From Prevotella sp. (GTDB lineage Bacteria; Bacteroidota; Bacteroidia; Bacteroidales; Bacteroidaceae), in contig JAFTQG010000010.1 in NCBI GenBank assembly GCA_017462915.1, positions 20,566 to 84,565 on the forward strand: a DNA stretch of 64,000 bases, read 5' to 3'. Within the stretch, counting starts at the first letter, position 1. Each line of letters starts with the position of its first letter. Below are positions 5,969 to 21,724 of the stretch, in pieces. The notes beneath the pieces were generated by a model. It did not search any database. It saw nothing but the letters and a program-made list of their open reading frames with translations, and was not told the origin of the DNA. The translations under genes and the position numbers were made by a program.

Positions 5969-6499
5969 ATGGCAACAAAAATTCGCCTCCAGCGTGGTGG
6001 TCGTAAGAACTACGCATTCTACAGTGTTGTAATCGCAGACTCACGTGCTCCACGTGACGGCCGTTTCATCGAGAAAATCGGAACTTACAACCCTAACACA
6101 GACCCTGCAACTGTTGATATCAACTTTGAGCGTGCTCTCTACTGGGTAGAGTGCGGTGCACAGCCAACAGACACAGTACGCAACATCCTCAGCAGAGAGG
6201 GAGTCTACCTCATGAAGCATCTCAAGGGTGGTGTAAAGAAGGGAGCATTCGACGAGTCTGCCGTACAGCAGAAGTTCGATGCTTGGAAGCAGGCTAAGGC
6301 AAACGGTTTTGACGCTGCAAAGGCAGCCGTTGCAAAGGCTAAGGACGAGGCAAAGGCTACACAGCTTGCTGCTGAGAAAGCTCAGAACGACGCTAAAGCA
6401 AAGGCTGTAGCTGAGAAGAAGGCTGCCGCTGCTGCCGCAAAGGCTGAAGCAGAAGCTGCTGCCACTGCAGAAGAGACAACAGAGACAGCAGAGGCTTAA
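5969..6499 (+). CDS. rpsP: 30S ribosomal protein S16 with long Ala/Lys-rich tail
   Basis: A small-subunit ribosomal protein of 176 residues starting [13 protein letters not shown]. The canonical S16 fold spans about residues 1-80 ([21 protein letters not shown], then [12 protein letters not shown]). The rest is a highly charged Ala/Lys/Glu extension, which makes the protein about twice the usual bacterial length. Such tails are known in Bacteroidetes S16. The ATG at 5969 is used rather than the upstream in-frame ATG at 5939, which falls in the leader hairpin. It is a single-gene transcript with its own promoter and terminator. Confidence 0.96.
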
Positions 6500-6550
6500 A
6501 TCAAACAACCCTCTACAATCTCTTTACAGTCTTATCTGTAGAGATATCTA

Positions 6551-6602
6551 AAATCCACATACATCCAGCAAATTCCTTCGGATGTATGTGGATTTCTTTT
6601 TA
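6551..6602 (+). terminator. Intrinsic terminator of rpsP
   Basis: A 16-bp perfect stem (6551-6566 with 6580-6595, arm AAATCCACATACATCC) is followed by CTTTTTAT. It lies 52 bp after the rpsP stop codon. Confidence 0.9.
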
Positions 6603-6730
6603 TCGGTAGAAAGACTTGACTGTTGCGGCACTAAGACTCCGTCAACTTCACATCAGCAATTAGGACTAAAGTGGCATAAATCATCATCTACACACAGACA
6701 TAATCCATTGGACAATTATACACTCATGAA

Positions 6731-6812
6731 AAAAAGGTAACCCTTCACTTACTGAAAGGTTACCTTTTATCTTGTAAAGGGTTACCTTACACATCATCAA
6801 GGGTAACCCTAT
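6731..6812. repeat. 22-nt phased dyad-repeat array 1 (four GGTAACC/GGTTACC units)
   Basis: Four copies of a short dyad with core GGTNACC, usually flanked by A and T runs. The centres are at 6739, 6761, 6783 and 6805, exactly 22 nt apart. The 15 nt between cores are not conserved. The array lies between the convergent genes rpsP and the DUF3332 gene. The rest of this gene-free stretch (6604-6730 and 6813-7006) shows only an imperfect hairpin around 6850-6880 (GTAGTC...GACTAC). Confidence 0.85.
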
Positions 6813-7006
6813 AAAATAAAAGTATGATGGCTGATGTATAATTTCCTGTAGTCCACGGGTATATATCCCATAGACTACATCTTGCAATCAAGATAAATCT
6901 CTCCGAAACTGTATGGATTGAACTTCATTTTTCTTAAAGAGTACAGAATATGCCCTATATGCTCCTCATAAAAAACGAGTCTCTTTATCCATACATGGAG
7001 CAACAT

Positions 7007-7558
7007 CTATCTCATTGCCCAATAGGTACCGCCATTGACAGCCATGCGCACCTGATGCACACCGTAATCGTTGAGCGACACGTCCATCCTGTTGCCGTCC
7101 GGCAATGTCGCCTTTATAGTACCGTCCTGGTTAAACCGGAACAGCTCTATACGCTTGCCGTCCTCAATCCGCGACCATGAGTCGGATGCATCGTCGTGTA
7201 CGAGCCGTACCAGTTCTCCTTCCGGTGTGGTAATCTCGTATCCGTCCTTCAAGGTCTTCACGGCATAGTAGCGACCGTCCTCACCCATCACCTTACGTGT
7301 CTTGCCTATATTGCCGGCGACAGGATTGCTACCCGACCAGAACTCAATGGTGTTGAACAGAAGGGCATCTGCCACTCCCGACAGCACATAGACCGGTGAT
7401 ATCAGGATGAATATCACTTCATTAAGGAATTTGCTCTTCGTTGCACTACGGTTCCATGTGGAGAGTTTATTGAACAGACCGAACGAACCCAGACAGGAAT
7501 TTGTCAGCAACCCCAAAGCGATGGCCATGGAAACCACACGAATGTTCTTTCTTCTCAT
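7007..7558 (-). CDS. DUF3332-like lipoprotein
   Basis: 183 residues, with a signal peptide ending in a lipobox (LLTNSC, Cys near position 22). The sequence SCLGSFGLFNKLSTWN followed by two hydrophobic segments (about 47-65) and a C-terminal beta-rich part resembles DUF3332, a family of unknown function. The gene ends near the convergent repeat array. It is 96 bp downstream of an acetyltransferase gene on the same strand and could be the last gene of that transcript. No catalytic residues are evident. Confidence 0.75.
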   Translation of the reverse strand: MRRKNIRVVSMAIALGLLTNSCLGSFGLFNKLSTWNRSATKSKFLNEVIFILISPVYVLSGVADALLFNTIEFWSGSNPVAGNIGKTRKVMGEDGRYYAVKTLKDGYEITTPEGELVRLVHDDASDSWSRIEDGKRIELFRFNQDGTIKATLPDGNRMDVSLNDYGVHQVRMAVNGGTYWAMR

Positions 7559-7654
7559 ATTTTCAAATGTTTTTAGGTGAATTAAAATTACAGTATCAGA
7601 AACATCAAACAGCAGAGTCTCTGATTAACCAAAAGACATACCCAGGACGTTCCT

Positions 7655-8197
7655 TCAGCTTCCAGCAGAATGCTCTTCCGCCGTAAGACGCATGAAGTGT
7701 TCGTCATGCATGTCTCCAAGCAGTGATTGCCTCGAATATTCTGTATGGTGATAGGTGAAACCGCATTTCTCAGCCACACGACGCGACCTGTCATTGCCGT
7801 CATAATAACCAATCCATACAGCAGACTGTCCAAGAATATCAAAGCATCGGCAGACAAGTCCACGCACAGCTTCCGTCATCAGTCCCTGTCCCCAATATGG
7901 CGCGCCAAGCCAGTATCCGATCTCCGCCTCGCCGACAGCCATGCCGTCTCTTAAGACTATACCACAGCATCCTATCGGTTCGCCTGTGGCTTTCAACACT
8001 ATAGCATACGTCTCCGGAGCGGCGAAGACTGTACGGATGACTTCAAGACTATTGTCTATAGATTCATGTGGCGGCCACCCTGCCGCAGGACCTACAGCCG
8101 GGTCACTGGCATATCTATACAATATCTCCGCATCATCTTCCCGCCAAGGGCGCAGTATCAGGCGAGGTGTTTCAATATTAATTGTTTTTACATCCAT
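7655..8197 (-). CDS. GNAT acetyltransferase, RimJ/RimL type
   Basis: 180 residues starting [18 protein letters not shown], the usual opening of the Acetyltransf_3 group that acts on N-termini or small amines. The acetyl-CoA binding segment reads [20 protein letters not shown] place the start at 8197; the upstream in-frame ATG at 8239 adds an atypical leader. The substrate is unknown. It follows the cobalamin adenosyltransferase by 126 bp on the same strand. Confidence 0.82.
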
Positions 8198-8323
8198 ACT
8201 ATATGATTTTACAATGACTTTCACAAGAATCTCCAGCACATGTAATCATCGCATCATCGTCCTAAGACATTTTCAGCTATCCCATATCATAGCCTATCGA
8301 TGCAAGAGAAATACATTGAGCCG

Positions 8324-8854
8324 TCACGCTACAAGACGTGCGAGGACAAAAAAGAAATCCGACAGACGGTTGACATACGCCATGACATTCCCGTCTACCT
8401 CCACACCGTTCCCGGCAAGGCGCAAGATATTGCGCTCTGCACGACGGCATACTGTACGGCAGATATGGGCCTGTGCAGCCATGGCGTTGCCCCCGGGGAT
8501 GATGAACGACCGTAGAGGAGGTAGCTGTCCGTCAATATGGTCGATGGCTTTCTCTACGGCAAGAACCATCTCTGCTGTGACAATGCATGATGGATGCAAC
8601 TCGGTGGTGCTCGTGTCTGTAGCCAGATAGCCGCCTACAGCAAACAGTTCCTGCTGTATGCGGGCAAGAATATCTGCCACAAAGGCAGCGTTGTCACCCG
8701 TCATCTCTGCCTTGCACAACACAGCAAGCATCCCCACATGAGCATTGAGCTCATCGACAGTGCCGTAACTCTCAAGCCTGTCGCTGCATTTCGACACCCT
8801 CTTGCCTCCCACAAGCGATGTCATGCCTTTATCTCCGGTCTTTGTATATATCAT
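8324..8854 (-). CDS. ATP:cob(I)alamin adenosyltransferase, PduO type
   Basis: Transfers the 5'-deoxyadenosyl group of ATP to cob(I)alamin, giving the coenzyme used by methylmalonyl-CoA mutase. 176 residues. The ATP-binding N-terminus MIYTKTGDKGMTSLVGG, the RVSKCSDRLESYGTVDELN motif and the late RTVCRRAERNI motif are all present. It lies 58 bp downstream of the symporter gene at 8913-10520 and so at the end of a B12-related cluster. It may also serve the propionate pathway, whose decarboxylase genes lie at 54.6-57.3 kb. Confidence 0.93.
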   Translation of the reverse strand: MIYTKTGDKGMTSLVGGKRVSKCSDRLESYGTVDELNAHVGMLAVLCKAEMTGDNAAFVADILARIQQELFAVGGYLATDTSTTELHPSCIVTAEMVLAVEKAIDHIDGQLPPLRSFIIPGGNAMAAQAHICRTVCRRAERNILRLAGNGVEVDGNVMAYVNRLSDFFFVLARLVA

Positions 8855-8912
8855 AGCCGTAATAGTTTTCTTATTATATCAATATAAAAGCCGTTGAATC
8901 TTGAGACTCCTG

Positions 8913-10520
8913 TCAATTGCCGTTAAAGAAGATGTACAACCCAATCATCACGACCACAAGGGCTATCCAAGATACAATGACTCCGAAAGATGTCTTCTCT
9001 TTAACCACCTGCATGGCACGATGCTCTTCAGCCGTCTTGTCGAATGCGCTTACCACTATCATCATGATGACAAGTACGCAGAACAGGATGAAGGAGAGCA
9101 TCATGAAGTGCATGGCCTCTGTTGCCCCTGGAATAATCCAAAGATAGCATATACCTGTAGAGATGCAGAAAATTGTTCCGAGGGAAAGTACAAGATTTGC
9201 AGCGAGTGTCGTACAACGCTTCCAGAAGACACCCATGACGAACACTGCCGCCATTGGAGGTGCTATGAACGAGAGTACAGACTGGAAGACATTGAAGAGA
9301 TCCATGCCCTTGATGTTGTCCACAGCGATAGTAATCACAATGGAGACAAGCGCACCGATGATAGTCACGATATGTCCTGTACGTGATATCTCTGACGGCG
9401 TGGCGTTTGGATTGACATTCTTCACATAAATGTCCATAGTGAATACAGTAGAGAGGGCATTCAGCGAACTGCCTATCGTAGAGACAAGGGCAGCCGTGAG
9501 GACCGCCATGACAAGGCCTACCATGCCCATAGGGAAAAGGTGGAGCACAAGAGTCATGTAAGCATTGTCAGGATCTATCGTCGCAGCACCGAAGAAGCCT
9601 GTGCGTGCAAGGGCGAAACATACAATACCAGGGACGATGTATATCGCAACATCAAGAATCTTCAGCCATCCTGTGAGGTTTGTTCCTTTCTGTCCCTCAT
9701 TCAGGTCTTTTGCGGCAAGCACGGGCTGCACCATAGACTGGTCTGTGCACCAGAACCACAGACCTGATATAGGATAGCCGAGAAGGATAGGCAACCAATA
9801 GTAATTGGGCAGTTCCTCTTCCGAGCGGAAAAGATTCCAATAGTCTGAAGGAACGATATTCGGGTCGGCAAGTTTGCTGATACCGTTTACGAACGTGCCG
9901 TCACCAAGCGTACAGATGCCGACAATGGTAAGTGTTGCCGACACGACTATCAGCAATACCATCTGGTAGACATTGGTATAGGCCACAGCCTTAAGACCGC
10001 CAAGGATAGTAAAGAAAGCGGAGATGGCGAGGAGTATCAGGGCTGAGAGCCACATAGGTATGCCGAAGACCTGACGTATAAGTACGCCACCCGCAAACAG
10101 TGTAAGAGCCAGCCATGAGATGAGAACTGTCACTATGGTGTACCATGCAAGGATACTGCGAGTGGACTGGCCGAAGCGGCGTCCCATGAATTCCGGCAAG
10201 GTATTTATCTTCTCTCCGAGATAGCGCGGTGCAAAGACAAAGGCAAGCAGACCTATGAATATAAAGGCATACCACGCATAGTTGCCGGATACGATACCTG
10301 TCGTGAAGCCTGCCGAGGCCGAGGCGATAAGCATCGAGGGACCGACGTTGGTGCCCCACATTGAGAAACCGATATGATACCATTTCAGTGAACGTGACGC
10401 AAGAAACTTGCCTTGCCCATCACCGGACTTGCGGCTTGCCCACAGTCCGATGGCAATAAGAACCACGAAGTATCCAATCAGGATAATCCAGTCCAGAAGT
10501 TGTAGAGATTCGGAAATCAT
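8913..10520 (-). CDS. Sodium:solute symporter (SSS family)
   Basis: An integral membrane transporter of 535 residues with about 13-14 hydrophobic segments. The N-terminal FLASRSLKWYHIGFSMWGTN and the GLWFWCTDQSMVQ motif are typical of the Na+/sugar (SGLT-like) branch of the SSS family. It lies 154 bp downstream of a methyltransferase gene and upstream of the adenosyltransferase, all on one strand, which suggests that it brings in the substrate or a co-substrate of the corrinoid cluster. The actual solute cannot be read from the sequence. Confidence 0.88.
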   Translation of the reverse strand: MISESLQLLDWIILIGYFVVLIAIGLWASRKSGDGQGKFLASRSLKWYHIGFSMWGTNVGPSMLIASASAGFTTGIVSGNYAWYAFIFIGLLAFVFAPRYLGEKINTLPEFMGRRFGQSTRSILAWYTIVTVLISWLALTLFAGGVLIRQVFGIPMWLSALILLAISAFFTILGGLKAVAYTNVYQMVLLIVVSATLTIVGICTLGDGTFVNGISKLADPNIVPSDYWNLFRSEEELPNYYWLPILLGYPISGLWFWCTDQSMVQPVLAAKDLNEGQKGTNLTGWLKILDVAIYIVPGIVCFALARTGFFGAATIDPDNAYMTLVLHLFPMGMVGLVMAVLTAALVSTIGSSLNALSTVFTMDIYVKNVNPNATPSEISRTGHIVTIIGALVSIVITIAVDNIKGMDLFNVFQSVLSFIAPPMAAVFVMGVFWKRCTTLAANLVLSLGTIFCISTGICYLWIIPGATEAMHFMMLSFILFCVLVIMMIVVSAFDKTAEEHRAMQVVKEKTSFGVIVSWIALVVVMIGLYIFFNGN

Positions 10521-10579
10521 CTGATAGTGTTTTTATTAGTTTTAGTTATTGGTTATTAGTCGTAACAGCATAGGGAAAC

Positions 10580-10664
10580 TGCCGGATAATGTCCGGCAAA
10601 AGACAGTAATGCCGGCAGGCTTGAGACATCGTCCCGTCATGGACGGATGTCATCAAAGCCTGCC
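10580..10664 (-). promoter_or_regulatory. Two hairpins between the UroD/MtaA-like and symporter genes
   Basis: A perfect 7-bp hairpin TGCCGGA/TCCGGCA (10580-10586 and 10592-10598), and a larger imperfect one whose outer arms are GGCAGGCTT and AAGCCTGCC (10614 and 10664) with an inner GACATC/GATGTC. No U-run follows on either strand. They could set an mRNA processing point or reduce read-through within the operon. Confidence 0.4.
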
Positions 10665-10674
10665 GCCATCTATC

Positions 10675-11682
10675 TTATAAAGATGCATTGTAGTCGTCCA
10701 GTGCCTTGAAGAATTGGTCGACATTTACAAGAGGTGTATGTGGCGGTGTGTCACATCCTGAAGACAGCACTACATGAGGGAATTCGCGCGTATTCTCCAG
10801 CAGTTCCATTGTCTGACGGTACATCTCTTCTGGCGTAGACATCTTGAATGCTGATACAGGGTCGAGATTTCCCATGACAAGGATGTTCTCCGGGGTCTCA
10901 CGTGCCACTTGCGCAAGGTCACACTTATTGCCGAGATGCAGACCGTGTGCACCGGTCATGACCATGGCCTCCGTACATTGGCCTGTATTGCCGCAGTTGT
11001 GAAGCACTATCATAAAGTGTTCATCCTGAAGCTGATCGATGATACGCTTGACATAATTGGAAGAGAATGTCTTGCAGTCATCATTTGACATCAGACCGGC
11101 AGCAGGCTCTGCCATGAGGACGCCTTCCACGCCAGTAGCTTTCAAAGCCGCAACATACTTGAGGATAAACAGTGTACACTTCTCCAACAGTTCATGTGCT
11201 GCTTCCGGGTCGCTGTATATCAGCATCATGATTTCAGACATGTCATACAGACGGCCTGCAAGGGAGAATGGTCCTATACAGCCGGCAAAGACGGGACGGT
11301 CGGAAATCTCGCGATGGGCAATGACATTAGCCTTTATATATTCCGGGACACGGGCTGTGTTCAGTGAAGGCACTTCAAGACGGTGAATGTCCTCTACCCC
11401 ATTGAGCATGTGACCTGTAACGGAAGGTATCTCATCCTCCGGGAATATCACTTCTGCACCAAAAGCCTCAGCCTCGACAGTAAGATCCATAATCACTGAT
11501 GCCGCATGGGTGGCATAACGGTCGGCAAGATAACTTACGGCCTTGCCGTGTATGCTGCCGTCGAGGACAGCCTGCTTGATAGTATAGCCCAGTTCCTCGA
11601 TGCCTGGATGTGTCATTACCGGTATCGCAACACGGTCAGGACGTGCAATGATGTCCTGACGCCATTTTATCATATCTATCAT
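10675..11682 (-). CDS. Zinc methyltransferase of the UroD/MtaA family
   Basis: 335 residues, a TIM-barrel protein of the uroporphyrinogen-decarboxylase superfamily. It carries the zinc set of MtaA/MtbA-type methylcobamide:thiol methyltransferases: His228-X-Cys230 in VLHNCGNTG, and Cys310 in SSGCDTPPHTP. True HemE lacks this site, so heme synthesis is unlikely. In the family the zinc activates a thiol that takes a methyl group from a methylated corrinoid. Here the carrier would be the B12 domain of the gene 61 bp upstream. The acceptor is unknown; coenzyme M is not expected in this organism. Confidence 0.85.
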   Translation of the reverse strand: MIDMIKWRQDIIARPDRVAIPVMTHPGIEELGYTIKQAVLDGSIHGKAVSYLADRYATHAASVIMDLTVEAEAFGAEVIFPEDEIPSVTGHMLNGVEDIHRLEVPSLNTARVPEYIKANVIAHREISDRPVFAGCIGPFSLAGRLYDMSEIMMLIYSDPEAAHELLEKCTLFILKYVAALKATGVEGVLMAEPAAGLMSNDDCKTFSSNYVKRIIDQLQDEHFMIVLHNCGNTGQCTEAMVMTGAHGLHLGNKCDLAQVARETPENILVMGNLDPVSAFKMSTPEEMYRQTMELLENTREFPHVVLSSGCDTPPHTPLVNVDQFFKALDDYNASL

Positions 11683-11743
11683 AAGTAAGCAATCAAAATT
11701 AAACGATACTATATATAATCAAGTAAGCGCTGTGTCCTAATGC

Positions 11744-14710
11744 TTATGAAGCCATGAGACGCTTGGCAAGAGCGACCGCCTCATTGGCATTAGCACTGTA
11801 ACCATCTGCACCTATCTCACGGGCAAAGTCCTCTGTCACCGGTGCTCCACCCACCATAACTTTCACCTTACCGCGCACGCCTGCAGCTTCAAGTGCAGCA
11901 AGACAGTCTGTCATGTAAGTCATTGTGGTAGTGAGCAATGCGGAGAGACATAGAATATCTGTTTCATTGTCGATAACAGCCTTGACAAAGGTCTCTGCAT
12001 CAACATCTATACCGACATTGATAACTTCAAAACCCGAGCCCTCAAGCATGGAGGCAACAAGATTCTTTCCTATATCGTGGAGATCGCCCTTGACTGTGCC
12101 TATGACTATCTTGCCCGCTGACTGCACACCCTCTCCGCTTGCCTCCATTATAGGCTTGAGAATCGCAAGGGCGGCTTTCATGGCACGGCCTGCCATAAGG
12201 AGATTCGGAACGAAAGCCTTGCCTTCAGAGAATCTCTGACCGACAACTGACATTGCCTCAATCATCTGAGTATTTATCAGTTCTGCAGGATTTGCACCAG
12301 CCTCAATAGCCTTCTTCGTTTCCTCTATCGCTACCGCTTCCTTTCCTGCAATGATAGCATCCTTCAGTCCAGTAGTTATAGCTCCAGTTGCTACGGACTT
12401 GGCTTCTTTCACAGGCTCTGCAGGCTTCTCCGCATGTGGTTTTGGAGCTTTTCTTATAGGAGCAGTGGACTCTCCACCTGGAACATGACCGCTAACAAAA
12501 CAGCCATCAGCAGGATTTACAAGTTCAGCTATCTTGCGGATATGCTCGCTTGTCGTGCCACAGCAACCGCCTACAATATTCACCAGATGACCGTCTATCA
12601 TATTCCACATCTGACGCTGGAACTCCTGCGGAGTAGTAGAATAGTTACCCTTCGAATCCGGGAATCCTGCATTCGGGAATGCTATAATATAATAAGGTAC
12701 AGTGGCAGCTATCTGTGCGATTACCTCTGTTGTGAGTTCTATATCAGGATTGCAGTTTACTCCGACAGCAATGACATTATCGTTCTTCAGACGCTGGAAA
12801 TATTCTATGACATTCTGACCGATCATATTCTTACCGTCAGCAGTGGAGAAGTTCGCGCTTATTAATACAGGAACTGTCTTCTGAAGTTCATCCATTGCCG
12901 TGTTGACAGCATCAAGGCCAATCTCCAGATTGACAAGATCGAATACCGTCTCGAAGATAATGCCATCAACACCAGCCTCTATAAGCGCAACAGCCTGTTC
13001 CTTGTATGAGGCATGGAGTTCCTGTTTCGTTATCTTTGCTGTGTCAGGCATGGAAAGAGTCTCGCGTGTCGGTCCCATCTCACCCAGTACATAGCGTGGT
13101 TTCTCAGGGTTGGCAACGGTAAACGTGTCCGCCAAATGACGGGCAAGAGTCACGGCAGCAGTATTTATCTCCACAGCCTTGTCTGCCAAACCGCAGGCTT
13201 TAAGGGAAACACTCTGTGCATTGAATGTATTTGCTGTGATGACATCTGAACCTGCAAGCAGGAACTTACGGTAAATGTCTGTAATCACTTCCGGGTGTTC
13301 AACGCACAGATACTCGTTGCTCTTCACATCGGTCAAGCCGTATGACTGTATGGATGTGCCCATCGCACCGTCAAAGACAAGCATACGCTGCTCCAGAGCT
13401 TCCACAAGTGTTGGCTTTGATACCGCAAGCGATGCGTCAGAAGACAGCGGTGTCTGGATTGTGACTTGTTTTCCACCAATATGCAGAGGACGGAAACGTG
13501 CCGTAGATTTCTTTTCTGCAAAAGCTGTCATGTCTCCAATATGCAGACACTCATCAACTTTGCGTTCCACCTCATGTGTCTGATATTCCTCGACGATACG
13601 CAGAGCCTGCTCCACCTCATCCTCATTGTGAAAGTCCATCTCCAGATGGATGCCATCGCCACCGACATTGTCAAGCAATGGGCGAAGCTGGTCTAAAGTC
13701 ACCCAGCAAGCCATGATGCTCTTGCCTCCTGCGAGAATCTTCTTATACAGGTCATACCATTTAGGATCTCCTCCCTGAGGTTCACCGACACCAGGAGTCC
13801 ACTGTATGGCATTAAGCTCCTCTATTTCAAGAAGCGCCGGCAGATGGTGCATAGCACCAACGCCATCAAGATGATACAGGGTATAAGGTATCTTCTGACA
13901 TTGTTCGCGCAGATAAGGCTGTACGAAACGACGGTAGTCATCGTCAGAAATCATCGTCGAGATGTCACTCTGTATCTTTGTCATCTTACCCGGAGCCCAA
14001 GATGAGAAATAGCAGAAAGCCATCTCGTCACCCTCGCGGATAATATCGTAAAGTTCGTCAAAGACCTTGAAATACACATCATTGATGAATTGAAGCTGTT
14101 CCTCAACTACTTCAGGTTGCATCACAGTGTCCAGCAATACCTTATCAGTACCTTTCAGCGCGGCAAGGACATCAAGTCCTTCCATAAGGTCTGGCATACC
14201 GACATAGTAATTGCCGTTTGCCTTACGCTTACATGCCTTCAGCAGTTCCTTATGTATACGCAACTGCTCGTTGTCAGGGTCAAATGTCAGTTTGTCCTTG
14301 AAGTTCGGGTCTGGGTGAATCCATATCGTATCCTCACCGCCTTCCACACGGGAACCAAGGATTGAGGCAAGCGAACCTGGGCCGAGCTGTGTATTTGCAA
14401 CAGGCAGCATATCAGCCTTCAAGCAAGAGTGTCCCACATACCAATCAAGGAAATTCGCACGCCACTCCGGGTCAAACCAACGCTGATTGCCGTCCTTTGC
14501 CTGTGGAGCTCCAGGGAGTCCGAAGGCACCAGTACCATAATTGTTGCGGGCAGCCTCCGTAAGGTGGATAGGCTGTTCTCCCGAATACGGACCATGTGGG
14601 GCGACTCCCTCCTGGAAATGCTCCCACATGTTCACGACTATACCCTTATGATTCCACCAATTAATATACCGCTTCTTGGTTTCATTGAGATTGTCTTTCC
14701 AAGTTTTCAT
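11744..14710 (-). CDS. Three-part corrinoid methyltransferase: UroD-like + homocysteine methyltransferase + B12-binding
   Basis: 988 residues. Residues 1-400 are a UroD-like barrel; at the place of the zinc HxC motif it has His280-Leu-Asp, so it probably binds no zinc there. Residues 434-733 match the homocysteine S-methyltransferase domain of MetH, with zinc ligands Cys653, Cys716 and Cys717 (GGCCGTT). A Lys/Pro/Ala linker follows, then the B12 cap helices (about 775-860) and the cobalamin domain (865-988) with the axial His878 in DLHDIG. The folate-binding and AdoMet-reactivation domains of MetH are absent. Domain order suggests that the N-terminal part methylates the corrinoid from some methyl donor and the middle part passes the methyl to homocysteine. 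The frame is open throughout, so the fusion looks real. The donor is unknown. Confidence 0.88.
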   Translation of the reverse strand: MKTWKDNLNETKKRYINWWNHKGIVVNMWEHFQEGVAPHGPYSGEQPIHLTEAARNNYGTGAFGLPGAPQAKDGNQRWFDPEWRANFLDWYVGHSCLKADMLPVANTQLGPGSLASILGSRVEGGEDTIWIHPDPNFKDKLTFDPDNEQLRIHKELLKACKRKANGNYYVGMPDLMEGLDVLAALKGTDKVLLDTVMQPEVVEEQLQFINDVYFKVFDELYDIIREGDEMAFCYFSSWAPGKMTKIQSDISTMISDDDYRRFVQPYLREQCQKIPYTLYHLDGVGAMHHLPALLEIEELNAIQWTPGVGEPQGGDPKWYDLYKKILAGGKSIMACWVTLDQLRPLLDNVGGDGIHLEMDFHNEDEVEQALRIVEEYQTHEVERKVDECLHIGDMTAFAEKKSTARFRPLHIGGKQVTIQTPLSSDASLAVSKPTLVEALEQRMLVFDGAMGTSIQSYGLTDVKSNEYLCVEHPEVITDIYRKFLLAGSDVITANTFNAQSVSLKACGLADKAVEINTAAVTLARHLADTFTVANPEKPRYVLGEMGPTRETLSMPDTAKITKQELHASYKEQAVALIEAGVDGIIFETVFDLVNLEIGLDAVNTAMDELQKTVPVLISANFSTADGKNMIGQNVIEYFQRLKNDNVIAVGVNCNPDIELTTEVIAQIAATVPYYIIAFPNAGFPDSKGNYSTTPQEFQRQMWNMIDGHLVNIVGGCCGTTSEHIRKIAELVNPADGCFVSGHVPGGESTAPIRKAPKPHAEKPAEPVKEAKSVATGAITTGLKDAIIAGKEAVAIEETKKAIEAGANPAELINTQMIEAMSVVGQRFSEGKAFVPNLLMAGRAMKAALAILKPIMEASGEGVQSAGKIVIGTVKGDLHDIGKNLVASMLEGSGFEVINVGIDVDAETFVKAVIDNETDILCLSALLTTTMTYMTDCLAALEAAGVRGKVKVMVGGAPVTEDFAREIGADGYSANANEAVALAKRLMAS

Positions 14711-14716
14711 TCTTTT

Positions 14717-14789
14717 TCAATAATTATTGACTGTTTTTTATTAAAGGTGGGTCTGAAAAATCATCTTCCTAATCTCCAAACCCACCTTT
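14717..14789 (-). promoter_or_regulatory. Leader hairpin and palindrome ahead of the corrinoid methyltransferase gene
   Basis: On the minus strand a 10-bp stem AAAGGTGGGT/ACCCACCTTT (14780-14789 and 14743-14752), extendable to 13 bp with one G-U pair, encloses a purine-rich loop of about 21-27 nt. The 14-bp palindrome TCAATAATTATTGA (14717-14730) follows, 7 bp before the start codon. I looked for a cobalamin-riboswitch B12 box in this leader and did not see one. Confidence 0.4.
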
Positions 14790-14808
14790 TATAACTGTTA
14801 CAAGTGAA

Positions 14809-14816
14809 CAAAAATA
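14809..14816 (-). promoter_or_regulatory. Possible internal -7 promoter element
   Basis: On the minus strand TATTTTTG matches TAnnTTTG, about 100 bp ahead of the 988-residue gene. No -33 box is seen. It would give this gene its own transcript with a structured leader. Confidence 0.35.
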
Positions 14817-14837
14817 TATTTGTCTGCATAGAACCAT

Positions 14838-14873
14838 ACTTTCGGAAAATTCCTATCAGAATCTACCGAAAGT
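14838..14873 (-). promoter_or_regulatory. Inverted repeat just downstream of fucI
   Basis: A perfect 8-bp inverted repeat ACTTTCGG/CCGAAAGT (14838-14845 and 14866-14873) lies 17 bp after the fucI stop. No U-run follows, so it is not a classic terminator; it may protect the 3' end of the mRNA. Confidence 0.35.
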
Positions 14874-14889
14874 GCTTCCATAGCTGAAC

Positions 14890-16710
14890 TTATTTATACA
14901 TAGGACCGAAGTTGGCACAAGCGCGATAGTCAGCACCTTCCTTATCCATGCCGAAAGCGTTCCAGCAAGCAGGGCGGAAGATGTCCTTATCGGCAACATT
15001 GTGCATACATACCGGTATGCGTAGCATCGAGCAGAGCGTGATGAGGTCTGCGCCGACATGACCGTAGACTATAGCGCCATGGTTAGCACCCCAGTTGTTC
15101 ATGACAGAGTACACATCCTTGAAAGCATCCTTTGAAGGATCAAGACGTGGTGCAAACCATGTTGTCGGCCATGTAGGGTCGGTACGCTTGTCAAGAATAT
15201 CATTGACATCCTTGTCAAGTTCCACAGTCCATCCCTCAGCAAGCTGCAATACAGGGCCGAGACCTGCTACAATATTCACACGAAGCATTGTCATAGGCAT
15301 ACCACCCTTTGTCAGGAAGTGTGAAGAATAGCCTCCGCCACGGAAATAGTCGCGGTCTGCAGGCATCCAGCTTGTGGCATTCAGACAGTTCTCCATATCC
15401 TGCTCGGTGATGTCCCAGTGAGACTTCATTGTAGGATTTCCCTCTGCATTTGTCATGGCACCAGTCGCATCAAGAGTCGTTGCGCCAGAGTTGATGAGAT
15501 GTATGAAGCCATTGGCCGCACCGCCTTCCGGACGCTTGCCGCTCACGCGTTCTACAGCCTCTGGGCTCCAGTATGTACGGATATCGGAGAACATCGCGCC
15601 CTTATTGGTAAGGAGATGTCCGAAAAGCATCGACATGCCGTTAAGGAAATCATTCTCTGTCGCAAGAATCTTTGCCTCACGTGGACCGTTCCAGTCAAAG
15701 CTGGTGCACATCATAGACTCAGGGAAGTCAAAGTTAGGCTTGTAGTCAGTCCACTGACGCTGTCCCTGTACACCGGCAGCAATGGCATTGTGTCCGAGAG
15801 CTTCCTCCAGATAGCCCATCTCCTTGAGTTTCTCCGAACCGCACATGAGGTCGCGGATAATCATCATGCACTTGACAGTAAACTCCCAGTCAGCATCCTT
15901 CTCTTCACGGTTTTTGCCCTTTCCCTTGCCGTTGAAAGTCGTCATCGGTGTTCCAGGGAAGAGTGGACGGTCCTCGTTATAGTCATATCCCTCATTTGTC
16001 TTGCAGTATTTCTCTATCCACGCCATAGCCTTTTCAAACTCTTCATGGTCGTAGATGCCATAATCCACACGACGCAGTATCTCAACCAGCGAGACATACT
16101 CCGTACGCATTCCGAGATAGTCCTGCAGGAAATCAGCATTCACAATAGAGCCTGCAATACCCATACATGTATTGCCAAGGCTGAGATAAGACTTGCCACG
16201 CATTGTAGCCACAGCCTGTGAGGCACGTGCAAAGCGCAGTATCTTCTCGGCAACATCAGAAGGTATTGTATTGTCCGACAAATCCTGGACATCATGTCCA
16301 TAGATACCGTATGCAGGAAGTCCCTTCTGTGCATGAGCGGCAAGAACAGCAGCGAGATAAACCGCTCCTGGACGTTCTGTGCCGTTAAAGCCCCACACTG
16401 CCTTAGGATGTGTAGGATCCATATCCATCGTCTCCGAACCGTAACACCAGCATGATGTGACAGTGATGGTAGAACCGACATTCTCACGCTCGAACTTCTC
16501 CTGGCAGGCAGCTGCCTCGGCTACACGTCCGATAGTTGTATCGGAAATGACGCATTCAACAGGAGAGCCGTCACCGTTTCTGAGGTTCTCACTTATAAGT
16601 CTTGCCACAGCATTGGCAAGTGCCATAGTCTTTTCTTCAAGACTTTCACGGATACCGCCTTGGCGACCGTCTATGGTCGGGCGAATACCAATTTTAGGAT
16701 AGTTAGACAT
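14890..16710 (-). CDS. fucI: L-fucose isomerase
   Basis: Interconverts L-fucose and L-fuculose (and in the family D-arabinose and D-ribulose). 606 residues, collinear with Escherichia coli FucI except for an extra loop near residues 236-272. Shared blocks include [12 protein letters not shown] at the start, [31 protein letters not shown] and [12 protein letters not shown]. The catalytic residues appear intact as Glu352, Asp376 and His544, in the contexts TEND, SDIRTYW and GANHG. No fuculokinase or fuculose-1-phosphate aldolase gene lies nearby; the neighbours are a symporter, a DHDPS-type aldolase and corrinoid methyltransferases. The sugar handled here may therefore be a fucose derivative. 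Confidence 0.95.
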
Positions 16711-16789
16711 AACTGTAATATTTTGTTTTTCTTTGTTTTCTTTATATAATTAATTATCACTGGAGCGGGATTCCCCACATTGGTATATC

Positions 16790-18307
16790 CTATTTGTTCT
16801 TTACAGGAATAAGGAGCACAAGCGCGAAACCCACGATGAAGATGGTCATGGTACCGAGCACAATGGCAAGATATTCGTGCAGCCCAGGGTCAGGAAGCCC
16901 TATCCATTTCCAGGCCGAAATCCATGCGATGACAGCAAAACCACACAGCACACCGATGACAGCGTGGATATTCTTGACCTTCGTGGAGAGATAGCCGAGC
17001 AGGAAAAGGCCAAGCATACCTCCAGAGAAGATTGACGACAATTTCCACCATGCATCAAGTATACTGTCGACATTTACCAGCGCTATGGCGACACAGATGC
17101 CGAGCACGCCGATAAGAACGGAGCCGAGTTTGAGCACCATAAGATGTTCCTTGTCGCCGATGCCTTTTGTACGGTCACTGCCTTTTCGGTGGACATGCCT
17201 GCGCATACGCATCCAATAGTCGGTAAGGAGAATTGTCGAGCATGATGTCACTGACGTTGCGACGGTAGACATTCCTGCAGCAAACACACTGGCTATGAGC
17301 AGGCCTGTCAGACCTGTAGGCAACGAGTGCACCATAAAATAAGGGAACACATAGTCTGTCTTGTCGGCAGCCTCAAAAGCAGCTATCTGTGCATCAGGGA
17401 AAACCTTGTAGTAACTGAAAAGACAGGTGCCTATCAAGAAGAACAGCGCCGATACAGGAATATACAGCCAGCCGCCGAAAAGGGCAGCATTCTTTGCCTC
17501 CTTATCCGTCTTTGCAGTATGGTAACGCTGTACATAGTTCTGGTCTATGCCGTAGTTCTGGAGATTGATGAATACACCATATATAAGACATACCCAGAAA
17601 GTGGAATGTGCGACATCAGAGAACGAGAACGAGCCTAACGAGAACTTGTTCCTTCCTGCCTCGTCAAGTGTGTCCCACCCTATCTGCAACGCCTGCATAG
17701 GACCTTCCGGCATGGAGAACATCAGCACAGCAAGGCATACCAATGCTCCTCCTATCAGGATGAAGCCCTGTATCGCCTCGGTCCATATCACTGCCTTCAT
17801 TCCTCCAAGCATCGAATAGAAGATGATGGCTATGGACGTGATGATGATAACCGTGCGGAGATCCCATCCCATAAGGATATTCATCGGCATCGCAAGCAGA
17901 AAGAGTATAGAGCCCATGCGGGCAATCTGCGTCAGCAGATAACATGCCGAAGCATATATTCTCGCCCATGGACCGAAGCGCTCCTCAAGGAAGGCGTATG
18001 CGGAAACACTCTCGTGATTCCTGTAAAAAGGCACAAACCACTTGGCCGCTATCCAGCAGGCTATAGGTATACTTAGTCCGAAGACAAAAGGATTCCAGTC
18101 CGAGGCGTATGCCTTACCGGGATTGCCGAGATATGAGATGCTGGAGACATATGTCGAGAAGATACTCATACCCACGACCCAGCCTGGTATGCTCTGTCCT
18201 GCATTGGTGAATTCCTTGGCACTGGTGTCCTTGCTGTAAAACAGGCTGCCCATAAGGACTATGCCACCGGTGAAGACAAGGAATACTATAATATCTATTA
18301 TGTGCAT
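16790..18307 (-). CDS. Sodium:solute symporter (SSS family), second copy
   Basis: 505 residues with about 13 membrane segments, starting MHIIDIIVFLVFTGGIVLMG. The motifs KEFTNAGQSIPGWVVGMSIF and NYGIDQNYVQRY are typical of the sugar/sialic-acid branch of the SSS family. It lies 27 bp after the aldolase gene and 79 bp before fucI on the same strand, so it most likely imports the substrate of these enzymes. It differs clearly from the other symporter at 8913-10520, so the cluster may take up two solutes. Confidence 0.87.
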   Translation of the reverse strand: MHIIDIIVFLVFTGGIVLMGSLFYSKDTSAKEFTNAGQSIPGWVVGMSIFSTYVSSISYLGNPGKAYASDWNPFVFGLSIPIACWIAAKWFVPFYRNHESVSAYAFLEERFGPWARIYASACYLLTQIARMGSILFLLAMPMNILMGWDLRTVIIITSIAIIFYSMLGGMKAVIWTEAIQGFILIGGALVCLAVLMFSMPEGPMQALQIGWDTLDEAGRNKFSLGSFSFSDVAHSTFWVCLIYGVFINLQNYGIDQNYVQRYHTAKTDKEAKNAALFGGWLYIPVSALFFLIGTCLFSYYKVFPDAQIAAFEAADKTDYVFPYFMVHSLPTGLTGLLIASVFAAGMSTVATSVTSCSTILLTDYWMRMRRHVHRKGSDRTKGIGDKEHLMVLKLGSVLIGVLGICVAIALVNVDSILDAWWKLSSIFSGGMLGLFLLGYLSTKVKNIHAVIGVLCGFAVIAWISAWKWIGLPDPGLHEYLAIVLGTMTIFIVGFALVLLIPVKNK

Positions 18308-18333
18308 AGTAATGATTGTAAGGTTGGAACTTT

Positions 18334-19275
18334 TTACAGTTTCAGTTTACCATGCTCCACATTCAGCTTCGCAAGTGCGATAGTGACCTTGTCACGTTCC
18401 GGCTTATCGAACTTGTAGAATGGAGAAGCAACGAAATCATCGTCTATGACACCGAGCTGCTGGCAAGCGCACTTCAGTCCCTTAAGATAGCTGGAACCAT
18501 GTCGGCCGATGGTGTATACCGTACGGCTTATCTGCATGATAATCTGCTGCAGCTTTACAAGTTTCTCTATATCCTTGTCCTTTGCGGCATTGTACATTGC
18601 CACATAAAGTTCAGGGAACATATTGGCACCGCCGTTCACACCGCCGTTGGCACCCATGAGCACACACTCGCCGGTAATCTCCTCCGGACCGCAGAACATC
18701 ATGAAGTCAGGGTTGACCTTGCGCACCTCATACATCACGCTCTGGAAATAGACAGCATTGGCAGAAGAATCCTTCAAGCCTACCACTTGCTTCATCTTGG
18801 CAAGACGGGCAACTGTCTCCGGAGCGAAATTGACCTTGACATGTGACGGCATATTATAAAGGAATACCGGGAGAGGGAGCTGCGGTACAAGCTCTTCATA
18901 GAACTGGGCAAGCTCCGGCTGTCCGGTCGCGAAATAATATGGAGGAGCAGAGACAAGACCGTCAGCGCCGCAATCCTTGGCGATATTGGCAAGGCGGACA
19001 GCCTCCACTATAGATGTCTCCGTGATACATACGAGTATAGGAAGACGACCGTTGTTGATACGGCAGGACTCGCGAATCATCTGCTCGCGGACACTGAACG
19101 AAAGAGACTGCTCCTCGCCTGTCGTACCCAGCACGAAGAGACCATGCACACCTCCTGCAATGAGATGATTGATAAGACGCTCCAGACTCGGGACATCAAC
19201 GGTCTCATTGTCAAGAAGTGGAGTTACAAGTGGCGGAACAATACCGCTGAGCGGTGTTTTCATCAAATCTATCAT
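18334..19275 (-). CDS. DHDPS/N-acetylneuraminate lyase family aldolase
   Basis: 313 residues of the class I aldolase family that forms a Schiff base. The GTTGEEQSLS motif, the YNMPSH tyrosine motif and the Schiff-base lysine in GLKDSS are all present. Members make or cleave 2-keto acids (dihydrodipicolinate, sialic acid, 2-keto-3-deoxy sugar acids). It is the first gene of a minus-strand run with a symporter and fucI, which points to sugar-acid cleavage rather than lysine synthesis. The substrate is not known. Confidence 0.85.
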   Translation of the reverse strand: MIDLMKTPLSGIVPPLVTPLLDNETVDVPSLERLINHLIAGGVHGLFVLGTTGEEQSLSFSVREQMIRESCRINNGRLPILVCITETSIVEAVRLANIAKDCGADGLVSAPPYYFATGQPELAQFYEELVPQLPLPVFLYNMPSHVKVNFAPETVARLAKMKQVVGLKDSSANAVYFQSVMYEVRKVNPDFMMFCGPEEITGECVLMGANGGVNGGANMFPELYVAMYNAAKDKDIEKLVKLQQIIMQISRTVYTIGRHGSSYLKGLKCACQQLGVIDDDFVASPFYKFDKPERDKVTIALAKLNVEHGKLKL

Positions 19276-19309
19276 AATTCAAATAAGTTAGTTATTGTTA
19301 GTTTGCTTG

Positions 19310-19317
19310 CAAAATTA
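19310..19317 (-). promoter_or_regulatory. -7 promoter element for the aldolase-symporter-fucI run
   Basis: On the minus strand TAATTTTG matches TAnnTTTG, 34 bp ahead of the aldolase start. It diverges from the trmD promoter. No clear -33 box is visible. Confidence 0.42.
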
Positions 19318-19355
19318 ATAATTTTTTCAAAGAAAAACGCATAATCTACGCTAAA

Positions 19356-19388
19356 TTTGTGTTAATTCAAAAAACTTTTGTACTTTTG
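19356..19388 (+). promoter_or_regulatory. Promoter of trmD, nearly leaderless
   Basis: Both Bacteroidetes elements are present: -33 TTTG (19356-19359), 21 bp, then -7 TACTTTTG (19381-19388). The ATG follows only 7 bp later, so the mRNA should have almost no leader. Confidence 0.62.
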
Positions 19389-19395
19389 CAAACAA

Positions 19396-20070
19396 ATGAG
19401 AATAGATATAATAACAGTATTACCCCAAATGCTCGAGCCATTCATGAACGAGAGCATCCTGGCAAGAGCACAGAAAAAAGGGCTTGTGGAGATACATATC
19501 CACAACCTCCGTGACTATACCCTCGACAAGTGGAAACGTGTCGACGACTACCCGTACGGCGGATTTGCCGGCATGGTAATGCAGATAGAGCCTATCGACC
19601 GATGCATCTCCGCACTGAAGGCTGAGCGTGATTATGACGAGATAATATTCACATCGCCTGACGGAGAGCAGTTCAACCAGCATGTCGCCAACGACTTGTC
19701 GATGAAGGAGAACATCATCATCCTTGCAGGACACTACAAGGGCATAGACCAAAGAGTACGCGACCATCTCATCACCCGCGAGATAAGCATCGGAGACTTC
19801 GTGCTGACGGGAGGAGAACTTCCGGCGGCTGTCATGGCTGATGCCATCGTCAGACTCATCCCTGGAGTAATCGGCGACGAGCAGTCCGCCTTCTCAGACT
19901 GCTTCCAGGACGACCTGCTGTCTGCTCCGATATACACGCGGCCGGCCGAATACACGGGCTGGCGCGTGCCCGACATACTGCTCTCCGGACATGAGGCGAA
20001 GATAAAGGAGTGGGAAATGGAGCAGGCTCTTGCGAGGACAAAAGCCCTGCGCCCTGACCTCCTGAAATAG
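19396..20070 (+). CDS. trmD: tRNA (guanine-N1)-methyltransferase
   Basis: Methylates G37 next to the anticodon using AdoMet, which prevents frameshifting. 224 residues starting [16 protein letters not shown]. The trefoil-knot SPOUT motifs are present: [28 protein letters not shown] and [19 protein letters not shown]. The start at 19396 is preferred over the ATG at 19378, which lies inside the -7 promoter region. It stands 59 bp before pepT and is not next to rpsP/rimM as it is in many bacteria. Confidence 0.96.
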
Positions 20071-20129
20071 GCCGCAACGGCATTTGGACGACAACGAAAC
20101 GAACATAAACGATAAAAACATAAGAAGAT

Positions 20130-21356
20130 ATGAACCTGACAGAACGCTTTCTGAACTATACCAAGTTTGACACACAGTCAAGCGAGGACTCACAGACTGT
20201 GCCAAGCACGCCCGAGAAACAGCTTGCCTTTGCACGATACCTGAAGGAAGAGCTTGAAGACGAAGGACTTGAAGACGTGGAAATGGACGACAAGGGATAT
20301 GTCTACGCTACCCTGCCTTCGAATATCAAGCAGGATGTGCCGACCATCGGCTTCATCTCACACTACGACACGTCGCCAGACTGCTCCGGCGCGGACATCA
20401 AGGCGCGCATCGTGGAGAACTATGACGGTGGCGACATCATCCTCTCCGAAGGCATAGTTTCCTCCCCTACCAAGTTCCCAGAACTGCTGCAGCATAAGGG
20501 AGAAGACCTCATTGTGACAGATGGACACACGTTGCTCGGGGCTGACGACAAGGCCGGCATCGCGGAAATCATACAGGCAATGGTATGGCTGAAGGAGCAT
20601 CCGGAGGTGAAGCACGGCAAGATACGTGTCGCTTTCAATCCTGATGAAGAGATAGGTATGGGTGCACACCATTTCGATGTCGAGAAATTCGGGTGTGACT
20701 GGGCTTATACGATAGACGGAGGAGACCTCGGAGACCTTGAGTACGAGAACTTCAACGCCGCTTCTGCCAAGGTCACCGTAAAGGGTGTCAGCGTGCATCC
20801 TGGATATGCCAAGGGCAAGATGCTCAACGCCAATGTCGTGGCTATGGAGTTTGCCAATATGATGCCTGCCGACGAAAGGCCTGAGACAACGGAAGGCTAC
20901 GAGGGATTCTACCACCTGCTGCATATCGAGGGCGGCATAGAGTCTGCAAAACTGGCATACATCATACGTGACCACGACAGGCAGAAATTCGAGGACAGGA
21001 AAGCTTTCATAAAGAAAGCAGGAGAACAGCTGAACGCTAAATACGGCGATGGCACTGTCTCTGTTGACGTAAAGGACCAGTATTACAACATGAAGGAGAA
21101 GATAGACCCTCAGATGCACGTCATAGACATTGTGCTCCATGCCATGCAGGAGTGTGACGTACCGCCGCGCGTCGAGCCTATCCGTGGCGGCACAGACGGC
21201 GCACAGCTGTCATTCAAGGGACTTCCGTGCCCTAACATCTTCGCCGGCGGAGTGAATTTCCATGGTCCTTATGAGTTCGTATCCTGTCAGGTGATGGAGA
21301 AAGCCATGAACACCATCATCAAGATATGTGAGCTCACTGCGCAGTATAACGACTGA
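20130..21356 (+). CDS. pepT: Peptidase T (tripeptide aminopeptidase)
   Basis: A cytoplasmic M20 zinc metallopeptidase of 408 residues that removes the N-terminal residue from tripeptides. The metal and catalytic residues lie in [35 protein letters not shown] and the late [11 protein letters not shown]. The length matches the family. It probably shares the trmD transcript (59 bp gap). Confidence 0.95.
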
Positions 21357-21619: not shown

Positions 21620-21724
21620 TGCAAGTTGTTTACGATATACAGGAACTGACTCTCTTGGTTTCCACCGCAAAGAGGCTATAAGGATCGTACCATAAGGCAA
21701 CAATATCAGCAGCAGAGCAAAGTA

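Follow-up and report, generated by a model that had tools for sequence, protein, structure and literature searches.

The stretch of DNA analyzed here (the window) comprises 64,000 nt of Prevotella sp. (assembly GCA_017462915.1, contig JAFTQG010000010.1, positions 20,566 to 84,565, forward strand), and the genome to which it belongs (G000) is 99.97% complete. Positions 8324..19275 hold seven genes, all on the minus strand, with 26 to 179 bases between neighbors (Table 1). An earlier note on this DNA had described a seven-gene single-strand cluster, and its coordinates and gene families are confirmed by our analysis. P. muris (L091) has the same set of seven genes, ordered as here, and P. intestinalis (L092) has six of them, the adenosyltransferase not being recognized. 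Because of these layouts and of 80 loci in public genomes that encode the N-terminal module of the 988-aa fusion protein (UroN), the cluster is not a chance arrangement. No riboswitch or other known RNA reached the gathering score in positions 4000 to 24000 of the window or in eight relative loci. The Bacteroidales promoter pattern gave seven exact matches in the window; none lies ahead of the cluster on the minus strand.

Table 1. Genes of the cluster and modules of the fusion protein (window positions)
Feature	Position	Strand	Evidence
ALD, DHDPS/NAL-family aldolase	18334..19275	-	Pfam PF00701, 1.3e-60
SSF1, Na+/solute symporter	16790..18307	-	PF00474
FucI, L-fucose isomerase	14890..16710	-	TIGR01089, 1076.9 bits (cut-off 850)
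988-aa fusion: UroN + homocysteine methyltransferase + corrinoid	11744..14710	-	
UroN module, residues ~1-385	13556..14710	-	No Pfam match; predicted URO-D fold; HLDG and EMDF motifs
Homocysteine S-methyltransferase (Hcy) module, residues 444-731	12518..13381	-	PF02574, 3.2e-74; GGCC and NC zinc motifs
Corrinoid cap domain, residues 781-852	12155..12370	-	PF02607, 1.2e-18
B12-binding domain, residues 866-979	11774..12115	-	PF02310, 1.7e-26; DLHDIG motif
MtaA-like zinc S-methyltransferase (His-x-Cys ... Cys)	10675..11682	-	PF01208, 1.4e-59; best PDB 4ay7
SSF2, Na+/solute symporter	8913..10520	-	PF00474, 1.1e-57
ATR, PduO-type cobalamin adenosyltransferase	8324..8854	-	TIGR00636, 2e-52

Pfam searches found neither a pterin (methyl-THF) binding domain nor a MetH-type activation domain in the fusion chain. 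The motifs of its Hcy and corrinoid modules, DLHDIG included, are intact in 64 of the 67 fusions scanned. UroN had no match in the PDB by sequence profile. The best of five AlphaFold2 models of UroN has a pLDDT of 81.3 (the other four, 62.5 to 69.6), and all 26 of its Foldseek matches at E<=0.001 are MtaA or UroD, led by MtaA 4ay7 (E 6.3e-10), at TM-scores of only 0.38 to 0.63. The strand order agrees with that of MtaA by eye, and on this model the module is of the URO-D/MtaA fold. Because profile-profile comparison with the MtaA set gave no significant match, the kinship of the two is one of fold only. Likewise, the UroD part that the earlier note saw in the 988-aa protein is upheld by the predicted fold but not by Pfam, in which the N-terminal third has no match at E<=0.001.

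Both UroN motifs (HLDG and EMDF) are present in 76 of 78 intact loci, and H280-x-D282 and E357/D359 are invariant across 39 alignment rows. UroN has His-x-Asp where MtaA has His-x-Cys; the MtaA-like relatives encoded nearby carry HNCG and SSGCD motifs in all 44 cases scanned. Within the URO-D superfamily, O-methyltransferases are described as having a carboxylate where S-methyltransferases have Cys (PMC10418091). We propose from the model and these motifs that UroN is a sugar O-demethylase with a His-x-Asp metal site.

Public contigs supplied the 80 UroN loci, and all neighbor counts cover the 78 intact ones. The recurrent cluster consists of genes encoding GH141, GH31, UroN(-Hcy)-B12, a Na+ symporter, an MtaA-like S-methyltransferase, and a MetH-type activation domain as a protein of its own. 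SSF2 (52/78), GH31 (51/78), GH141 (49/78), MtaA (44/78), and the activation domain (36/78) are common neighbors, whereas FucI (10/78), ALD and SSF1 (8/78), and ATR (2/78) are rare. GH141 directly precedes GH31 in 46 loci, and GH31 lies directly upstream of UroN in 36; no GH31 gene is nearby in 27, some of which are explained by a contig end. In Marseilla, the genes ahead of GH141-GH31-UroN are FucP and one that is weakly fuconolactonase-like. The earlier note had held that a lack of conserved neighborhood would speak against its reading; what we found in relatives is a recurring cluster.

The GH141 protein BT_1002 releases 2-O-methyl-D-xylose-alpha-1,3-L-fucose (MeXyl-Fuc) from pectin rhamnogalacturonan II (RG-II), while another member of the family is a xylanase (PMC10154630). 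Endo-fucanases are also placed within GH141 (PMC12786026). Relative G058 (L036) encodes a GH141 that matches BT_1002 at 601 bits; for many UroN-adjacent GH141s, identity to the BT_1002-like reference is only about 42%. Leader-like N termini were seen in all three GH141s examined and in neither of two GH31s. The window cluster itself lacks GH31 and GH141. The own genome has two GH141_M matches and a single GH31 match, an orthologue (68%) on another contig, where three genes separate it from a GH141 of more-distant type. The second GH141 (C51) shows 43% identity to the BT_1002-like L036 protein and lies within an RG-II-type trio, flanked by 5mqo-like and 3cih-like genes. The neighbors of UroN favor MeXyl-Fuc from RG-II as the substrate, and therefore the methyl group is probably on xylose. 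The methylated deoxy sugar suggested in the earlier note is accordingly not favored, whereas its general scheme of a methylated carbohydrate donor, a corrinoid carrier, and homocysteine as acceptor finds support, as does the handling of fucose by FucI.

A different substrate, 2-O-methyl-L-fucose of RG-II chain B, would be converted by UroN to L-fucose and passed directly to FucI, which is in outline what the earlier note put forward. FucI adjoins the fusion in the window, and in locus L127 a GH106 matching 5mqm, which we take to be an RG-II chain-B enzyme, lies two genes from the fusion. GH139 is a known methylfucosidase family. RG-II does contain 2-O-methyl-fucose (PMC12282258). However, the commonest glycosidase neighbors are GH31 and GH141, and the characterized GH141, BT_1002, releases methylxylosyl-fucose, so that we regard methyl-fucose as an unlikely donor.

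We consider it probable that these genes encode a corrinoid-dependent sugar O-demethylase that feeds straight into methionine synthesis, with MeXyl-Fuc from RG-II as donor. By analogy with BT_1002, periplasmic GH141 would free the disaccharide from RG-II; SSF2 is proposed to import it, and cytosolic GH31 would cleave it, with FucI taking the fucose half. In keeping with its modeled fold and motifs, UroN may use a metal site with carboxylates instead of thiol ligands to activate the ether oxygen, handing the xylose O-methyl to the cob(I)alamin that the fusion carries in its C-terminal domain. The MetH-type module, judged by its domain identity, would then move the methyl onto homocysteine to give methionine. 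A separate MetH-type activation protein may rescue oxidized corrinoid, and the MtaA-like protein may serve a thiol, perhaps as an alternative methyl outlet. By Pfam, the seven cluster proteins include no Ram/RACE activase; a free-standing short activation domain is encoded elsewhere in the own genome (G000:C48; 42.9 bits, profile positions 121 to 265 of 273) and is 55% identical to its counterpart beside UroN in L127. It may serve the fusion.

In the own genome, MetE, canonical MetH, and MetF were not found, nor did the MetH pterin domain give a match at 1e-15; the only Hcy domain belongs to the fusion, and MetA is retained. The same holds for Marseilla massiliensis, P. muris, and P. intestinalis, which keep MetA while searches found no MetE, canonical MetH, or MetF. 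MetF was not found in G000, G201, G202, and G205, and MetA is present in all four MetF-less genomes checked, out of 14 carriers lacking both MetF and MetH. The retention of MetA suggests that homocysteine is still produced, and with the usual methionine enzymes not found, the fusion looks like the sole methionine synthase of these species. In Palleniella and some relatives no other homocysteine-methylating enzyme was found, and there the fusion apparently replaces the folate (MetF/MetH) route. Joint absence of MetH and MetF was seen in 13 of 51 fusion-type and 1 of 15 non-fusion-type carriers (p=0.16). Genomes without the fusion have lost MetH as well: in the family-wide search, 13 of 201 (7 of the 132 better ones) gave no match at all. 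That some fusion carriers lack MetH and MetF was not foreseen in the earlier note.

Two other readings concern the fate of the methyl group. (i) The methyl may exit mainly via the MtaA-like protein to a thiol, with homocysteine as a side outlet and the species lacking MetH and MetF being methionine auxotrophs. MtaA accompanies UroN also in loci that have no Hcy module, as in P. vulgatus (L102), and the loss of MetH in family members without the fusion fits as well; but the intact Hcy and corrinoid motifs of nearly all fusions and the MetA kept in MetF-less genomes make this quite improbable. In the 11 of 78 loci (Bacteroides and Phocaeicola) that encode UroN and B12 domains without the Hcy module, another methyl acceptor must operate. 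(ii) The fusion could be a methionine synthase of the folate or free-methylcobalamin type, in which UroN is structural or takes an endogenous donor and the glycan genes are bystanders. Its Hcy and B12 modules are MetH-like, and GH31 and GH141 are absent from the fetched stretch of some carriers. The missing pterin domain, the missing MetF, and a recurring GH141-GH31-UroN order that is hard to explain by chance leave very little probability for this explanation.

A broader reading, which we hold only tentatively, is that several gut Bacteroidales lineages dropped MetF, MetH, and MetE and draw the methyl groups of methionine and S-adenosylmethionine from plant cell wall sugar ethers by means of a single B12 enzyme with three modules. 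It includes a parallel set (GH67, an MtaA-like protein, and a second URO-D protein) that might treat 4-O-methyl-glucuronate of xylan. With both sets, B12-dependent plant-sugar demethylation would be general in the gut and the rumen.

The fusion resembles MetH in its homocysteine module with zinc Cys motifs, its corrinoid cap, and its B12 domain with DxHxxG; a separate activation domain is also found beside several canonical MetHs of the family. Unlike in MetH, a URO-D-fold module stands in place of the methyl-THF (pterin) module, and MetF was not found in several carriers. MesA to MesD belong to the MetE line. The fusion shares folate-independent methionine synthesis with these enzymes, which are core synthases without folate-binding domains, whereas the fusion is of MetH type with its own methyl-donor module (PMC7857596).

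CmuA, the chloromethane methyltransferase/corrinoid fusion, combines a URO-D-type methyltransferase and a corrinoid domain in one chain, as does the P. vulgatus UroN form of about 600 aa. The present fusion differs from CmuA in its proposed sugar-ether donor, its added homocysteine module, and its pectin breakdown context. Like the aryl O-demethylases OdmB and VdmB, it would pair a URO-D-superfamily ether demethylase with a corrinoid protein, with a predicted carboxylate for a Cys metal ligand (PMC10418091). It differs from them in the proposed acceptor (homocysteine, not tetrahydrofolate), the adjoining MetH-type activation domain, and the sugar context. MtvB is another anaerobic aryl O-demethylase. 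Type 1 mlp clusters also contain several URO-D-superfamily methyltransferases and a corrinoid protein, with a proposed methionine link, but most of theirs are S/Se-methyltransferases of the His-Cys-Cys type, accompanied by a Ram/RACE activase, whereas UroN has His-x-Asp and lies beside glycoside hydrolases (PMC10418091). As in the Bacteroides thetaiotaomicron RG-II degradome, relatives of GH141, GH127, and rhamnosidase are encoded in the own genome. One RG-II linkage reportedly escapes cleavage by B. thetaiotaomicron (PMC12282258); we infer that this may be the MeXyl-Fuc linkage, cleaved by the present GH31.

Our literature searches found no prior description of the fusion or of this cluster composition, in agreement with the earlier note, and nothing on methyl-D-xylose with cobalamin or on O-methylated sugars with corrinoid. 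We propose that the cluster adds a sugar-ether donor and a homocysteine acceptor to the corrinoid O-demethylase systems. If so, it would provide anaerobic B12-dependent removal of plant-sugar methyl ethers, a route absent from the literature searched, account for a possible fate of RG-II 2-O-methyl-xylose, add a folate-independent MetH-type methionine synthase, and link the methionine and SAM supply of gut bacteria to pectin in the diet and to vitamin B12. The idea can be tested directly in species that exist as named strains: P. muris, P. intestinalis, Marseilla massiliensis, and Phocaeicola vulgatus ATCC 8482.

ATR was considered as a core part and rejected at its frequency among intact loci; its presence in the cluster is probably incidental. 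For ALD, the best PDB sequence is 4xky, named dihydrodipicolinate synthase. A clear identity as N-acetylneuraminate lyase, DapA, or KDG aldolase was rejected, ALD scoring under the cut-off of all seven matched NCBIfam families. The processing of the demethylated sugar by the aldolase, as put forward in the earlier note, is so far unsupported, ALD being a rare neighbor of UroN. It may act on a 2-keto-3-deoxy acid derived from fucose or RG-II, and a role of ALD and SSF1 in the use of Kdo, Dha, or aceric acid from this pectin was considered. A relative of SSF1 (59%) is encoded directly before GH127-type and GH141 genes in genome G023 (L086).

Seven closely spaced genes (intergenic gaps of 26, 79, 179, 61, 154, and 58 bases) make up the cluster, and family searches bear out the families that the earlier note had read from the sequence: a DHDPS/NAL-family aldolase, two Na+/solute symporters (SSF1 and SSF2), L-fucose isomerase (FucI), a 988-residue fusion protein, an MtaA-like zinc S-methyltransferase (MtaA), and a cobalamin adenosyltransferase. 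In the fusion, a homocysteine methyltransferase (Hcy) module and a corrinoid (B12) part follow a URO-D-fold module (UroN), and residues 1 to about 430 gave no Pfam match at 0.001; the Pfam search found neither a pterin-binding domain nor an activation domain in this protein. By eye, genes elsewhere in the window resemble methylmalonyl-CoA epimerase and a carboxylase set, which the adenosyltransferase may serve.

Coordinates of the cluster, the domains of the fusion, and related loci
Feature	Position	Strand	Basis
Seven-gene cluster	window 8324-19275	minus	
Homocysteine S-methyltransferase domain	residues 444-731 of 988-aa fusion	minus	Pfam
Corrinoid cap	residues 781-852 of 988-aa fusion	minus	Pfam
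B12-binding domain	residues 866-979 of 988-aa fusion	minus	Pfam
Genes resembling methylmalonyl-CoA epimerase and carboxylase set	window 54582-57282		By eye
Transketolase half and FGGY kinase	L168:6661-9988		
Genes between GH31 and GH141, own genome	L084:10413-16830		
GH67/MtaA/URO-D/corrinoid loci	L042:9491-19896; L043:1731-10516		Pfam on L042 only

A contig scan of public genomes confirmed 211 relatives, the best 80 of which form the locus set and come from Prevotella, Palleniella, Phocaeicola, Bacteroides, Marseilla, unnamed Bacteroidales, and a few entries named "uncultured bacterium." Closest to the window among these 80 are L090, Prevotella muris (L091), P. intestinalis (L092), and L148, with 91 to 99% identity in most genes, 81 to 96% in the Hcy module, and 79 to 93% in the adenosyltransferase where it was found; the genus of the window is deduced from this closeness. 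The Palleniella-like cluster of L148 shows 91 to 97% identity once the Hcy module is set aside; the record, titled a Bacillota bacterium, is probably a mislabeled assembly. Within the family survey (201 genomes, including the window's own genome, G000), four genomes carry the full fusion (G000, G023, G049, and G122), four a UroN-B12 protein of about 600 aa without the Hcy module (G008, G036, G058, and G094), and two UroN and the corrinoid part as separate genes (G109 and G077). In the last two (L038 and L040) these genes are neighbors; the fusion can be split.

UroN is intact in 78 of the best 80 of 211 loci, and it is joined to Hcy and B12 in 65, to B12 only in 11, and to Hcy without B12 in 2, both close to a contig end. 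Within the fetched stretches of these 78 loci, its neighbors are SSF2 (52), GH31 (51), GH141 (49), MtaA (44), and a small activation-domain protein (36), and more rarely FucI (10), the aldolase (8), SSF1 (8), and the adenosyltransferase (2), counts that are not independent events because many loci come from related species. The 41 loci with long flanks gave 34, 31, 29, 27, and 24 for the first five, respectively. GH141 directly precedes GH31 in 46 of the 78 loci, GH31 immediately precedes UroN in 36, and UroN immediately precedes SSF2 in 31, while the activation-domain and MtaA genes are paired in 34. The small partner has a MetH-type activation domain (Pfam PF02965; two scanned). At L168, a transketolase half and a glycerol-kinase-like FGGY kinase stand upstream of the fusion in place of GH31 and GH141; the gene adjoining the transketolase half looks like its other half.

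The AlphaFold model of UroN (39 sequences) has a mean pLDDT of 81.3, with 62.5 to 69.6 for the remaining four of five models. All 26 structural matches at an E value of ≤0.001 are MtaA or uroporphyrinogen decarboxylases, the best being 4ay7/4ay8, a Methanosarcina mazei methyltransferase named methylcobalamin:coenzyme M methyltransferase; TM scores are moderate (0.38 to 0.63) and sequence identities are 9 to 13%. Sequence profiles linked UroN neither to any PDB entry nor to the MtaA set. Two motifs, YTLYH-L-D-G and H(L/I)EMDF, occur together in 76 of the 78 intact loci (best 80 of 211), and their MtaA counterparts, H-N-C-G and S-S-G-C, in all 44 MtaA proteins scanned. By eye, the strand and helix order of the model puts HLD at the MtaA HNC position and EMDF at that of the last Cys. 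In the available text of Kountz and Balskus (PMC10418091), S-methyltransferases of the superfamily coordinate zinc through His-Cys-Cys, and its O-methyltransferases have one or both Cys residues swapped for carboxylates or noncoordinating residues. By this rule, with carboxylates in the UroN motifs and Cys in those of MtaA, UroN has the appearance of an O-demethylase, and the MtaA-like protein that of a thiol methyltransferase.

At 601 bits, the solved structure of BT_1002 is matched by the GH141 protein of G058 (L036). GH31 matches are 5f7c (1,282 bits), which we take to be BT_0339, and Escherichia coli YicI (364 bits), presumably an alpha-xylosidase. By eye, a hydrophobic N-terminal leader is present in all three GH141s inspected and in neither of two GH31s. 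The own genome has, on contig C30, a GH31 orthologue (68%, the sole GH31 match) and a distant-type GH141, with three genes between them, which encode an SDR, a HAD resembling KdsC by eye, and a Fumble/BcrAD-type kinase-like protein. On C51, the genes on either side of a second GH141 match 5mqo (presumably BT_1003; 889 bits) and 3cih (presumably BT_1001; 887 bits). At L127, two genes separate the fusion from an upstream GH106 (5mqm match, 1,230 bits), and in Marseilla (L103) GH141-GH31-UroN is preceded by FucP (283 bits; cutoff, 280.4), dehydrogenase genes, and an amidohydrolase with weak resemblance to L-fuconolactonase (29.7 bits; cutoff, 400). As judged from sequence, these glycan neighbors would fit a methylated pentose plus fucose as the substrate; 2-O-methyl-fucose, for which GH139 is the family, is an unlikely candidate. 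According to the accessible part of a review (PMC10154630), BT_1002 frees 2-O-methyl-D-xylose-alpha-1,3-L-fucose (MeXyl-Fuc) from chain A of the pectin RG-II. Because GH141 also includes a xylanase (PMC10154630) and, in the available text of PMC12786026, endo-fucanases, and because many of the UroN-adjacent GH141s share only about 42% identity with the L036 protein, their assignment to RG-II is not firm. In Bacteroides thetaiotaomicron, every RG-II linkage but one is reported as cut (PMC12282258, available text), and we infer that the one left is MeXyl-Fuc.

Taking gene content, domains, motifs, neighbors, and absent matches from sequence, and MeXyl-Fuc release by GH141 from the work of others, we think it fairly probable that MeXyl-Fuc is imported, split, and demethylated by UroN, its methyl group yielding methionine. 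SSF2 would be the importer, GH31 would cleave the disaccharide, UroN would demethylate before or after that cleavage, B12 would carry the methyl group to homocysteine, and the small activation-domain protein would reactivate the corrinoid. In Bacteroides and Phocaeicola, without the Hcy module, the methyl group may leave to a thiol through MtaA. A fucose acid or a different sugar acid of RG-II could be what the aldolase and SSF1 handle; an SSF1 relative in G023 adjoins a GH141 locus. The core methionine synthases MesA-D (PMC7857596) and the mlp clusters (PMC10418091) are among the nearest published ideas, the available text of neither describes the present system, and we found no earlier description in the open-access literature.

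In G000 (99.97% complete, a figure at hand for this genome and not for those reached through loci), MetE (PF01717) and MetF (PF02219) were not found, and the single PF02607 and PF02574 matches are both the fusion; a second match to the whole fusion, counted in the survey of 201, matches neither profile. The genome retains MetA (PF04204) and, on C48, one short activation-domain protein that shares 55% identity with its UroN-linked counterpart in L127. Ten genomes were checked with PF02965, PF02574, PF02219, and PF04204: all have MetA, and in four (G000, P. muris G201, P. intestinalis G202, and Marseilla G205) the fusion is the sole homocysteine methyltransferase found and MetF was not found. 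A joined MetF and MetH-pterin query of 66 UroN-bearing genomes (G058 and G243, with identical coordinates, are apparently one genome entered twice) found both genes in 45 and neither in 14, with 6 genomes giving only MetF and 1 only MetH; MetE was found in 2 of the 66 and in none of the 14. The 14 include G109, which has no Hcy module and is 88% complete, a sign that incomplete assemblies may explain some of these absences. In the Hcy tree (midpoint rooted, with several long branches), sequences from genomes lacking MetF and MetH fall in at least three groups (Palleniella-like with L100, L101, and L141; Marseilla with L109, L134, and L140; and L093, a 1.8-Mb assembly), interspersed with those having both. 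Both genes are missing from 13 of 51 Hcy-carrying versus 1 of 15 Hcy-less UroN genomes (P = 0.16). Species without MetH and MetF might instead be methionine auxotrophs, the methyl group leaving chiefly through the MtaA-like protein to a thiol; MetH loss in 13 of the family's 201 genomes (7 among the 132 better ones), which gave no match to the fusion query and hence lack MetH as well as the fusion, speaks for this reading, which we regard as very improbable. Given the weak contrast between Hcy-carrying and Hcy-less genomes and MetH loss without the fusion, the proposal that the fusion took the place of MetH draws its support chiefly from the near-complete own genome and the three named strains.

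A related arrangement exists in two genomes of another genus (G088 and G119), where a GH67 alpha-glucuronidase gene is directly followed by an MtaA-like gene (51 to 52% identity to that of the window), and within about 10 kb there are also a corrinoid protein (58 to 62%) and another protein of the URO-D type. Because GH67 enzymes free 4-O-methyl-glucuronate, these loci may perform the same B12 demethylation chemistry on that sugar of xylan. The GH67, MtaA, and URO-D genes are consecutive in L043, and one further gene separates MtaA from URO-D in L042; by eye, the second URO-D protein has HND where MtaA has HNC.
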